63,793 bases of DNA from Sphingomonadales bacterium (GTDB taxonomy: Bacteria > Pseudomonadota > Alphaproteobacteria > Sphingomonadales > Sphingomonadaceae), in the NCBI GenBank assembly GCA_014763545.1, contig JACXVD010000010.1, forward strand, positions 1 through 63,793, written 5' to 3'. This document shows, piece after piece, positions 38,840 through 46,663 of this stretch. Both the position numbers and the translations under genes were made by a program. Every line of letters starts with the position of its first letter. Position 1 is the first letter of the stretch. The notes beneath the pieces are model-generated. The model was given only the letters and a program-made list of their open reading frames with translations, ran no database searches and was not told the DNA's origin.

Positions 38840-39007
38840 CGGGCAGCCTTCAGCATGATATGTTGAAACATGGACCGGGTGTTACACAGTCCTGGCGAGA
38901 AAAAACCACCCTCCTCCTACGCGCGTTGCGGCGTGGATTGGAAGGGCGGCGGGCGTGCATTTGCACGGCTCTATCGCGTTGATGGGGTGTAGGACAGGGG
39001 AGGACGC

Positions 39008-39078
39008 CATCCTTCTCCCTCGGGAGAAGGATATGCAGGCTTGGCGTAAAACGCCTAGCCGGAGTTGGATGAGGGGCC
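39008..39078 (+). repeat. About 70-bp stem-loop repeat, copy 1 (3' side of the DUF559 gene)
   Basis: The unit consists of a hairpin ATCCTTCTCCC-TC-GGGAGAAGGAT (39009-39032), a second small stem GGCGT-AAA-ACGCC (39043-39055), and a conserved tail TGGATGAGGGGCC (39066-39078). Its end lies inside the last codons of the DUF559 gene. Copies occur at 39398 (inverted) and 39443 (direct). Confidence 0.88.
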
Positions 39079-39396
39079 CGCAACTCCCGCGATGCGCTCC
39101 AGCACGCCGTCCAGATTTTCCAGAACCTCGTGGTTCCAGAACCGGATCACCCGATAGCCCTGTGCCCTCAAGAATGCAGTTCGCTCCGCATCTTCCATTT
39201 CATCGTGCTGTCCCCCGTCGATTTCGACAACCAATTGCCGGTCGCGGCACTGGAAATCGACGATGTATGGCCCGACGGGCACTTGCCGCCGGAATTTCAA
39301 ACCCGCCAGCGCGCGATTACGCAGAGCCTGCCAGATACGCTGTTCGGCATCGGTCATATTCCGGCGCAACAGGCGGGCGCGTTCGGTCTGGTTCAT
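39055..39396 (-). CDS. DUF559 (Vsr-like endonuclease fold) protein
   Basis: A 113-residue protein of the DUF559 family: RRNMTDAEQRIWQALRNRALAGLKFRRQVPVG at the start, then YIVDFQCRDRQLVVEIDGGQH, where D, E and Q-H positions match the active site of restriction-endonuclease-like folds related to very-short-patch repair nucleases, and AQGYRVIRFWNHEVLENLDGVLERI at the end. DNA substrate is unknown. The gene is bracketed by inverted copies of a stem-loop repeat, the left one coding for its last residues (GPSSNSG). The cassette lies between folP and ccrM. Confidence 0.88.
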   Translation of the reverse strand: MNQTERARLLRRNMTDAEQRIWQALRNRALAGLKFRRQVPVGPYIVDFQCRDRQLVVEIDGGQHDEMEDAERTAFLRAQGYRVIRFWNHEVLENLDGVLERIAGVAGPSSNSG

Positions 39397-39397
39397 G

Positions 39398-39468
39398 GCC
39401 CCTCATCCAGTCTCCGCTAGGCGCTGATGCGCCAAGCTACGCCATCCTTCTCCCGATGGGAGAAGGAT
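39398..39468 (-). repeat. Stem-loop repeat, inverted copy (5' side of the DUF559 gene)
   Basis: Read on the minus strand this matches copy 1 over its full length: the hairpin ATCCTTCTCCC-GAT-GGGAGAAGGAT (39444-39468), the small stem GGCGC-TGAT-GCGCC and the tail GGCCCCTCATCCA (39398-39410), which is an exact 13-bp inverted match of 39066-39078. The small stem differs from copy 1 by a compensating T-A to C-G change. Confidence 0.85.
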
Positions 39469-39515
39469 ATGAAGGCTTGCAAACTTGCTTGCTAGCCGCA
39501 GTTGGATGAGGGGCT
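39443..39515 (+). repeat. Stem-loop repeat, third copy (direct), sharing its hairpin with the inverted copy
   Basis: From the same hairpin at 39444-39468 the unit runs rightward in the orientation of copy 1: GAAGGCTTG, then CTAGCCGCAGTTGGATGAGG up to 39512. It therefore forms a back-to-back pair with the inverted copy. It ends at the ccrM stop codon region. Confidence 0.85.
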
Positions 39516-39520
39516 CGCCC

Positions 39521-40666
<1,146 letters not shown>

Positions 40667-45147: not shown

Positions 45148-46318
45148 GGTGCTGCCCGCCGCCGCATGGACCCGGCGCCCCGAACTGGCGCAGCTGGTTG
45201 CCGCGCTGGGGGCGGAGAATATCCGCTGGGTCGGCGGCGCGGTGCGCGACACGCTGCTGGGCGCGCCGGTGAAGGATATCGACGCGGCCACCCCGTTGCT
45301 GCCCGAAGAAGTAATTGCCCGGCTGAAGGCAGCGCAGATCCGCAGCGTGCCCACCGGCATCGAACACGGCACGATTACCGCGATCCTGCCGGGCGGCCCG
45401 GTCGAGGTGACGACGCTGCGCCGTGACGTCAGCACCGACGGGCGGCGCGCCACGGTCGCCTTCGCCAGCGAATGGCGCGACGATGCGGCGCGGCGCGATT
45501 TCACCATCAATGCGCTCTATGCCGATCCGCAGACGCTGGAGATCGCGGATTATTTCGGCGGGTTGGCCGACCTTGCCGCGCGCAAGGTGCGCTTCATCGG
45601 CGACGCCCGCCAGCGCATCCGCGAAGACCATCTGCGCATCCTGCGCTATTACCGCTTCCAGGCGCGTTTCGGCGCCGATCTGGACGACGAAGCGGAAGCA
45701 GCCTGCGCGGAGCTCGCCGCCACGCTCAAGGGCCTGAGCCGCGAACGGGTGGCGATGGAACTGCTCGCCCTGCTCGGCCTGCCCGATCCCTGCGCCACGG
45801 TGGAGCGCATGTATCGGCGCGGGGTGCTGGGCGTGATCCTGCCCGAAGCGGTCAATCACCAGCAGGAATGCCTGCGTGCGCTGGTCGCGGCCGAACAGGC
45901 GGCAGGCGTCGCCCCCGATGGCGTGCGGCGGCTGGCCGCCTTGCTGCCGACGCTGCCCGAGGTGGCGAGCGACGTTGCCGCGCGGCTGCGCCTGTCGCGG
46001 GCACAGCGCGCACGGCTGGTCAGCGCGGCAGAGCGCAAGCCGGGCGAAACCATCGCCCCGCGCATCCTGGCATGGCGCGAAGGGCGCGAAAGCGCGGTCG
46101 ACCGGATCCTGCTGGCAGGCGGAAATCTGGCGCCGCTGGACGGCTGGGAGGTGCCCGAACTGCCGCTCAAGGGCGGGGAGATCGTCGCCCGCGGGGTCGG
46201 TGCCGGGCCGGAGGTGGCGCGGCTGCTGCGCGCGGTGGAATCCCGCTGGGTCGAGGAAGGCTTCCCGGGGCGCGAGCGGGTGCTGGCGCTGCTCGACGAG
46301 CAGCTGGCACAGGAATAG
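45140..46318 (+). CDS. cca: tRNA nucleotidyltransferase (CCA-adding) / poly(A)-polymerase family
   Basis: A 392-residue class II nucleotidyltransferase. The catalytic core has [24 protein letters not shown] (residues 31-54, GG and DxD motifs), [31 protein letters not shown] and [14 protein letters not shown], then a helical tRNA-binding body with [18 protein letters not shown]. It adds CCA to tRNA 3' ends. A poly(A)-polymerase role cannot be fully excluded from sequence alone. It is the last gene of the GNAT-DUF1285-Nudix-cca run and overlaps Nudix by 8 nt. Confidence 0.93.
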
Positions 46319-46340
46319 GCGGCGCAGGCACGCCCTTCAT

Positions 46341-46449
46341 GCGGCGGGAACCCGATGCAATCGGGCCAGGTTCAGGGCGGCTTCATGGTAAGCCACCTAG
46401 GGTGACCAGCGGTTGCATTCCTTCACCGATGATGGAATGAAACCGCCGC
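46341..46449 (+). ncRNA. Possible structured RNA (leader or sRNA), family not recognised
   Basis: Four nested or adjacent stems can be drawn on the plus strand: a closing stem GCGGCGG (46341) with CCGCCGC (46443), hairpin CCCGAT-GCA-ATCGGG, a stem AGGT...GGCTT-CATGGT-AAGCC-ACCT, and CATTCC...GGAATG. The pattern would suit a riboswitch-like junction upstream of the gene at 46664 or an sRNA. It does not match TPP, cobalamin, SAM, FMN, SRP, 6S or RNase P consensus I know. Strand is assumed. Confidence 0.35.
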
Positions 46450-46468
46450 CCGGCAATCTTTGCCGGGC
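46448..46468. terminator. GC-rich hairpin, possible terminator
   Basis: Arms GCCCGGCAA and TTGCCGGGC (9 bp, perfect) around TCT. No long T-run follows, so it may end transcription from cca weakly, or be part of the structured element before it. Confidence 0.45.
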
Positions 46469-46663
46469 GCTTCGGGTCGATTTCCTTCCGCCAGGCGAAG
46501 GAATGGGCTGCTCCACCCGGGCCATGCGCCCTTTCCTTGCGGAGCGGCATTTTGCGCTGGGCGCTGCGCGTCCTTGCATCAACCCGTCTTTCCATTCCGG
46601 CAGGCCTTGCGTTCCGGCGCGGGGGAACCTGTCACCGACGAAGACGCAATACGGAGTTGATCG

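Follow-up and report, generated by a model that had tools for sequence, protein, structure and literature searches.

The window analyzed here, a stretch of 63,793 nucleotides from a Sphingomonadales genome, contains a small gene on the minus strand (39055–39396) for a DUF559 (PF04480) nuclease of 113 aa, as judged from a profile match and the predicted structure. The gene fills the space between two palindromic structures. To the left lies a half element (39004–39077, plus strand) made up of the central hairpin, a stem and a tail, with 81% identity to the corresponding part of the full element. Its hairpin CCTTCTCCC/GGGAGAAGG was located by a sequence pattern search (39011–39030, plus), its second stem GGCGT/ACGCC from sequence and folding (39043–39055, plus), and its tail GGATGAGGGG (39067–39076, plus) is a mirror third strand of the arm GGGAGAAGG and points at the DUF559 gene. 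To the right lies a complete palindromic element of 118 bp (39397–39514, plus), delimited by folding and by the alignment of elements. It starts with the terminal repeat CCCCTCATCC, which on the minus strand is a tail GGATGAGGGG pointing at the DUF559 gene (39399–39408), and continues with the left internal stem GCT-A-GGCGC/GCGCC-A-AGC (39416–39437, plus; from folding and from pairing in the elements), the central hairpin CCTTCTCCC GAT GGGAGAAGG (39446–39466, plus), a third stem, which is the right internal stem GGCT-T-GCAA.../...TTGC-T-AGCC (39474–39497, plus; from folding), and the terminal repeat GGATGAGGGG, pointing at ccrM (39504–39513, plus). The central hairpin and both terminal repeats were found by pattern searches. 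The two sides of the window copy thus differ, half an element standing to the left of the gene and a full one to its right, and the G-rich tails GGATGAGGGG on both sides point at the gene. The DUF559 stop codon TAG (39055–39057) is located inside the CTAG of the left half element, and the ATG is 2 bp away from CCCCTCATCC of the right full element.

The single strand from 39396 to 39520 folds into a closed cloverleaf with a predicted energy of -70.3 kcal/mol (z -6.8). The sequence GGATGAGGGG occurs three times in the window (39067 plus, 39399 minus and 39504 plus), as compared to 0.16 expected, and CCTTCTCCC..GGGAGAAGG occurs twice, as compared to 0.00 expected. The original prediction had described three repeat units of about 70 bp. 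All three are real and lie where it placed them, but the second and the third overlap and represent one element of 118 bp with a single central hairpin. The 13-bp end that the units have in common reads TGGATGAGGGGCC, and the small stems GGCGT/ACGCC and GGCGC/GCGCC are both present, as had been described. A structured RNA of a known family was rejected, as an Rfam search of positions 38850–39600 gave no match with E up to 1.

The protein scored 141.9 bits against DUF559 (E = 8e-42), far above the Pfam cut-off of 20.6, which agrees with the family assignment made previously for the gene between the units. An alignment of 51 proteins, consisting of 50 of the 76 stop-free hits and the window protein, contains 14 invariant residues, among them E18, D47, E58, D60, H64 and D69, and from this conservation we infer that the invariant acidic and histidine residues may have a catalytic role. 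The predicted structure (mean pLDDT 87.6) was closest to 3hrl, an endonuclease-like protein from Neisseria (Z 16.6), followed by the catalytic domain of I-Bth0305I in structure 3r3p (Z 11.8 over 91 residues, rmsd 2.1), Vsr (Z 10.1) and TnsA (Z 6.5). The Vsr-like fold that had been expected for DUF559 is thus also seen in the predicted structure of the window protein. Matches by sequence profiles were obtained to 3hrl (E = 2e-37) and 3r3p (E = 9e-4). Sequence matches in the PDB to toxin B subunits (E 0.4–1.2) were judged to be due to chance, and a role in anti-phage defence was rejected, the PADLOC matches being weak (E 0.0013 and 0.039).

The DUF559 genes are under purifying selection, with dN/dS ratios of 0.05–0.24 in 12 of 13 pairs and saturated dS in the 13th pair. 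DUF559 was present in 253 of the 298 genomes sampled from the bacterial family of the window. The E. coli member YcjD has been assigned to the PD-(D/E)XK superfamily, according to the accessible part of PMC1189080. During experimental evolution of Legionella pneumophila, a segment encoding a transposase and a DUF559 protein is reported in three copies as a hotspot of mutation and recombination, according to the accessible part of PMC12308824.

The arrangement around DUF559 genes was analyzed in three sets of loci. A gene was considered to be framed if bracketed by an inverted repeat with a score of 13 or more. The first set contained 80 protein relatives fetched from named genomes, of which one locus was dropped due to a short flank. 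Of the 79 diverse loci that remained, 46 were framed, as compared to 4 of 474 control windows of equal geometry taken from other parts of these loci. For loci from the source genome and its family, 29 of 33 were framed, versus 0 of 330 controls, and among the best hits across the phylum, with long fused proteins included, 13 of 27 were framed, versus 5 of 270 controls. The framing is far above the controls in all three sets, which supports the original proposal that the hairpins and the DUF559 gene belong together. The other 14 phylum-wide best hits stayed below a score of 13, and several of these lie in long fused ORFs; they count against a cassette.

Removal of 43 of 154 loci with a short flank, a short domain, an ORF of more than 230 aa or a duplicate protein left 111 distinct loci, 71 of which had a bracketing score of 13 or more. 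The units have a polarity, with the hairpin outside and the tail toward the gene. Upstream of the gene, 43 tails were directed toward it and 9 away from it; downstream, the corresponding numbers were 49 and 18. A hairpin-tail unit was contained in only 2 of 1313 control windows. At three loci, in genomes of family f54, which we take to be enterics, the unit immediately follows the DUF559 gene and the 200 bp upstream of the gene contain none, which counts against a cassette. The longest bracketing inverted repeat that we observed (ungapped score 98) surrounds a DUF559 gene at locus L317 (G501:C31:46107–46412), and a second DUF559 gene is located approximately 5.7 kb from that gene in the same genome.

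The repeat classes cluster on the tree of the nuclease. This tree was built from the DUF559 domains of the 81 loci, out of 111, that have at least two class motifs. Changes of repeat class on it numbered 17, as compared to 29.6 when shuffled (0 of 200 shuffles); the tree is based on few columns, and near-copies help the result. The window protein grouped with a protein from a SAR202 Chloroflexota that has the same repeat class (support 89, with one long branch).

The tail is related to the hairpin in a specific manner: read backwards, it corresponds in many units to the purine arm of its own hairpin if T is permitted opposite A. According to the triad rules, T opposite A fits a reverse-Hoogsteen third strand. 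In the repeat family of the window, with arm GGGAGAAGG and tail GGATGAGGG, 9 of 9 triads match, so that a purine arm and a mirror third strand are both present in the sequence. The most common repeat family has the arm GGGAGAGGG and the tail GGGTGAGGG, and further pairs of arm and tail are AGGGGGAAG with GATGGGGGT and AGGGGGAGG with GGTGGGGGT. A perfect match (9/9) between the tail and its own arm was observed in 99 of 174 units, whereas permuted arms gave a mean of 31.8 and a maximum of 41 in 200 permutations. When each distinct arm was represented by a single unit, 23 of 61 were perfect, as compared to 2.9 for permuted arms (at most 9 in 300 permutations), in tests that, like the tree test, are inflated by near relatives. 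Tails of the same polarity, used as a control, were perfect in 10 of 61 cases, because several arms are near-mirrors of themselves. The matches to the own arm exceed those to permuted arms, and thus the mirror relation itself covaries. The 75 of 174 units in which the tail is not perfect count against a cassette. Since the tail mirrors the purine arm in many units, one strand of the hairpin and tail could, judging from its sequence, fold into an intrastrand triplex. The description of the units as stem-loops therefore needs to be modified: the hairpins are real, but many members consist of a hairpin with a mirror tail, of triplex type, and are not plain stem-loops.

With the window element as query, matches were found in 67 of the 298 genomes of the family, with one to four matches per genome, while a related element gave more matches in some genomes, such as 42 in G016. 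At the best place from each of 29 genomes, a match to the DUF559 domain was located 11–90 bp from the element in 8 cases, and none was found within the examined stretch in the other 21, so that solo copies are dispersed. A search for copies beside DUF559 genes had been proposed as a check of the prediction, and its counter-scenario of units scattered with no link to DUF559 did not materialize, since a link between the repeats and these genes exists. The four helices are kept in 31 full elements, in which 92.2% of the cells are paired, as compared to 83.4% after shuffling and 41–49% with slid partners. Cells changed on both sides of a helix numbered 112, as compared to 38.5 after shuffling (0 of 500 shuffles), where the shuffles leave relatedness in and some of the 31 elements come from opposite ends of the same cassette. 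The compensating change noted previously in the small stem is thus not a one-off event. The terminal inverted repeats are 11 bp long with 96.3% of the cells paired in the 31 elements, as expected for an IS or MITE. Alignment of contig C72 of genome G065 with positions 46224–46540 of the window was poor, and no such element was found in that part of the window.

The surroundings of ccrM were compared in 28 relatives, and DUF559 was present in none of the 28 fetched stretches, 11 of which included folP and one of which ended at a contig end. Hence, the arrangement in the window is not fixed among the relatives; a fixed arrangement would have spoken against the original prediction. Relative G004, with a ccrM gene 85% identical to that of the window, has a left flank that is recognisable up to GTGTAGGACAG, followed by 20 bp and the ccrM stop codon, whereas in the window the segment from GTGTAGGACAG to the ccrM stop codon measures 523 bp (38998–39520). 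G004 thus lacks the segment at the folP-ccrM junction, where a look for empty-site alleles had been proposed.

Presence and absence were also observed, among species of a single genus, for a solo element of G006. At the corresponding gene junction, G210 has this element and G161, G248 and G100 lack it, the flanks of the compared genomes being 78–97% identical. The compared solo elements are located in intergenic space. By visual inspection, G248 has about 22 bp at this site; at the position of the 115-bp element of G006 and G210, palindromes that belong to other families are seen in G161 (G161:C1:2234849–2234940) and G100 (G100:C1:473383–473508). In the solo element of G210, part of the central hairpin is present a second time, resembling a leftover of slippage or repair. 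In Sphingomonas sp. Root241, one cassette with its repeats is found twice, on two contigs, with 93% identity over 574 bp. Visual inspection of the elements and compared sites revealed neither a target-site duplication nor a clean pre-insertion allele at high identity. Two further results count against a cassette: no precise excision product was seen at the compared sites, and a search for a clean empty site for the cassette of G006, G161 and G210 showed that G100 and G248 carry other DNA there.

The source genome (an assembly of 3.07 Mb in 123 contigs) contains four DUF559 genes. Three of these are framed, and the framing sequence differs from gene to gene. The fourth, on contig C47, is unframed and counts against a cassette. 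With the window element as query, the only spot in the genome with E below 1 was that in the window itself, and with a relative's element as query three short matches were obtained on contigs C60, C81 and C120, which share one stem with that element and belong to other repeat families of the genome. The second DUF559 gene, on contig C110 (approximately 2179–2600), is framed by CCCTCTCCCC..GGGGAGAGGG TTGGGAGAGGGG and a near-inverse of it. The 22-bp unit at the 5' end of this gene has copies without mismatches on C15, C81 and C120; visual inspection indicated that those on C120 and C81 are each an arm of an inverted pair with the tails inward and no space for a gene. A reversed-pattern control is uninformative for the 22-bp unit, the pattern being its own mirror.

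The third DUF559 gene, on contig C30 (positions 1–720), has a gene-less counterpart at the end of contig C60. The first 99 bp of the two are identical and run into the hairpin CCCTCCCGCT/TGCGGGAGGG, at which C30 has approximately 408 bp of additional sequence that consists of a tail, the DUF559 gene and the hairpin sequence again. After this additional stretch, the contigs are 83% alike over 229 bp, covering a second stem, the tail GGTGGG and an inverted unit. The hairpin that C60 has in uninterrupted form is thus split in C30 by the gene and one hairpin half. The contigs part in the hairpin, and the gene therefore comes or goes at the hairpin. The difference could equally be a deletion, which counts against a cassette, and because both contigs end at the exact 99-bp overlap, the assembly may branch at this repeat.

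Dispersed units were counted with the pattern GGGAGAGG-N(2-32)-GGGTGAGGG, which covers a single repeat family and for which the source genome scores zero. A survey of 398 genomes from the phylum found the pattern in 120 of them, with up to 239 hits when counting both strands, while the reversed pattern gave 14 hits in all across the 398 genomes (counted by eye). DUF559 was present in 114 of the 398 genomes. Both were found in 85 genomes, only the pattern in 35, only DUF559 in 29 and neither in 249 (OR 21, P = 3e-33). The association also holds within families, with an odds ratio of 16.6 when a single hit sufficed and of 25 when five or more were required (P = 2-3e-12), based on 221 of the 398 genomes in 19 families, of which 183 or 181 were informative. 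The IS200/RAYT transposase domain (PF01797, Y1_Tnp) was present in 193 of the 398 genomes and showed no association with the pattern in this set (OR 0.8, P = 0.38), and a search for PF01797 in the source assembly gave no match. RAYT was therefore rejected as the general mobiliser of the repeats.

Ten or more pattern hits were obtained in 62 genomes, 9 of which lack DUF559, which counts against a cassette; candidate explanations are orphans, losses, assembly gaps or another driver. In genomes G340, G445, G465, G503, G561 and G597, two of which belong to f54, 32–148 pattern hits were found with no match to DUF559. Among 150 listed places in 19 genomes, opposite-strand pairs at most 150 bp apart had their tails inward in 15 cases and outward in 3 cases, the inward pairs having the same geometry as the units around a DUF559 gene.

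The units were also compared to known systems. I-Bth0305I, a member of the EDxHD family, resembles the window protein in the fold of its catalytic domain and by the profile match, whereas the window DUF559 is a stand-alone protein of 113 aa located beside repeats. Two types of REPs, GTAG and CGTC, have been described, the latter mostly in alphaproteobacteria and with no dedicated transposase, according to the accessible text of PMC3733652. As in GTAG REPs and REPINs with their RAYTs, palindromes frame a nuclease gene, several families occur per genome, and dispersed and orphan copies are found; here, however, the enzyme is DUF559 rather than a Y1 (HUH) transposase, and the tail is a mirror third strand. 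Membership in the REP/RAYT system was rejected since the framed gene is DUF559 and PF01797 is absent from the source assembly. A GTAG tag is not conserved beside the hairpin in the 31 elements (by eye), GTAG being confined to the left stem in a few of them. The units are palindromic like CGTC REPs but differ from them by a longer stem, another tail and no conserved CGTC tag, and were not assigned to this type, as the window stem is 11 bp (ATCCTTCTCCC) compared to the 8–9 bp given in the accessible part of PMC3733652, and CGTC is not conserved before the stem.

In tail and hairpin, the units resemble the intrastrand triplex motifs. A paper on triplex repeats by Hoyne et al. reportedly appeared in 2000. 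Such repeats are long published (Hoyne et al., cited in PMC4666352), and the motifs called PIT and TM_ECO have been reported in more than 260 genomes and linked to instability, with neither a consensus nor a function found for the flanking genes, as stated in the accessible part of PMC4666352. Like these motifs, the units consist of a hairpin with a mirror third strand and occur in many copies in many genomes, and inverted pairs are also found in E. coli. Moreover, TM motifs are located directly 3' of DUF559 in three f54 genomes. The window unit differs in that 36 nt with an extra stem separate the arm from the tail, as compared to published loops of 1–6 nt in the accessible part of PMC4666352, and for this reason it was not classified as a canonical TM. 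The same source indicates that footprinting of the E. coli repeats in vivo gave no support for a stable triplex, which counts against a cassette. In the open-licence PMC literature, we found no report of an enzyme for the triplex-type repeats, and titles and starts of abstracts did not connect DUF559, YcjD or COG2852 with such repeats.

We conclude that the DUF559 gene and the hairpin-tail repeats constitute a recurring unit with dispersed derivatives, the occurrence of which follows DUF559 and not RAYT. The window probably holds one copy of a widespread self-propagating cassette, in which a nuclease similar to Vsr and homing endonucleases is combined with its cognate repeats. Such a cassette would consist of a DUF559 gene between inverted units, each with a hairpin, an optional second stem and a G-rich tail toward the gene. 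The nuclease would recognise the hairpin-tail unit of its own family and break the DNA at or near it, and repair from another copy, with the repeats serving as homology, would spread the units and sometimes the gene in a homing-like rather than transposase-like manner. We infer that the unit is bound or cut by the nuclease and copied through repair; the solo copies and the gene-less small inverted pairs would be dispersed like non-autonomous derivatives. The homing-like route is preferred because of the homing-endonuclease fold, the breakpoint in the hairpin of C30 and C60, and the consideration that a nuclease of this fold is not known to join strands on its own. The latter point also bears on direct transposition, in which DUF559 would be a transposase, or the DNA-cutting half of one as TnsA is in Tn7, and mobilise what lies between the tails as a mini-transposon; the inverted pairs would then be MITEs. 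The compact layout with units as inverted ends, the tails-inward orientation of 15 of 18 close opposite-strand neighbours and the fold shared with TnsA fit this scheme. However, target-site duplications were not seen at the compared elements and sites, the flanks of the window copy are unequal, one being a half element and the other a full one, and the breakpoint in C60 and C30 lies inside the hairpin and not outside the units. We therefore regard direct transposition as unlikely.

It is also conceivable that DUF559 is an ordinary repair nuclease, of the very-short-patch or VsrA-like kind, or a processor of hairpins or triplexes that restrains repeats, which would gather near the gene and not be spread by it. 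This would agree with the Vsr-like fold, with the purifying selection and with VsrA of Caulobacter, which contains a DUF559 domain, shares the fold and is required for the DNA damage response in cells that lack the methyltransferase ScmA (PMC12907096, the accessible part of which makes no link to such repeats). It leaves unexplained the inverted units that bracket the gene, their orientation and the fact that paralogues within a genome are surrounded by units of differing sequence, and we consider it quite unlikely. Should the repeats instead be spread by RAYT, IS or replication slippage, DUF559 would be a passenger that landed beside them, and the repeat-rich genomes that lack DUF559 are of the kind expected. 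Such a scenario is very improbable given that the presence of repeats tracks DUF559 (also within families) and not Y1_Tnp, that the repeat class clusters on the DUF559 tree and that the source assembly has no Y1_Tnp match. Finally, the units fold well as RNA and the compared solo units are intergenic, as might be expected if they were terminators or mRNA ends belonging to a small gene and played no part at the DNA level. Units at both gene ends in mirror orientation, a mirror covariation of the tails that RNA stems do not need, and the negative Rfam search at the locus make this explanation extremely improbable. The link between DUF559 and the triplex-type repeats provides a candidate partner for the nuclease family and for the repeats alike, and it would explain both the dispersal and the mirror symmetry of the repeats. 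It would also mean that REP-like repeats can arise by a way that does not involve RAYT, through a nuclease whose evolution is coupled to that of a potential DNA triplex.

From the recurrence of the unit in many bacteria, laboratory E. coli among them, it seems that a class of bacterial repeats long regarded as orphans has an enzyme of its own. A more tentative extension, which we put forward as plausible but hold to be somewhat more doubtful than not, is that DUF559/YcjD proteins are the missing enzymes of the PIT/TM repeats. Nuclease and repeats would then represent a new class of selfish cassettes, in which a Vsr-fold nuclease recognises the three-stranded structure of its own flanking repeats and spreads them through the repair of breaks. 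Such cassettes would occur in many Proteobacteria and in some further phyla, and ycjD of E. coli would be the resident member in K-12. The question is testable in E. coli K-12 by means of a single gene, ycjD, and of the 23 triplex-type repeats mapped according to the accessible part of PMC4666352.

The ycjD gene of K-12 (NC_000913.3, 1351407–1351760) matches DUF559 with E = 1.4e-49. A hairpin-tail repeat is located approximately 180 bp off its 3' end, with the motif starting at 1351205, in agreement with TM_ECO no. 9 (1351204–1351239) in Table 1 of PMC4666352. At least 80% of the ycjD region was present in 3362 of 5426 E. coli genomes. In strain SMS-3-5, efflux genes adjoin fabI in place of the ycjD region. 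In the accessible part of PMC12817139, ycjD is reported for phylogroups A, B1 and C together with ST69 and ST182, and the eef operon for others in the same place. The gene thus alternates with the eef operon and not with an empty site, which counts against a cassette. By visual inspection of the ycjD locus (L332:1541–2330), the stop codon of ycjD is located inside an apparent decayed hairpin, CCCTCTCCC-TGAAA-GAGCGAGGG, and a long AT-rich palindrome is present at the upstream end of the gene.
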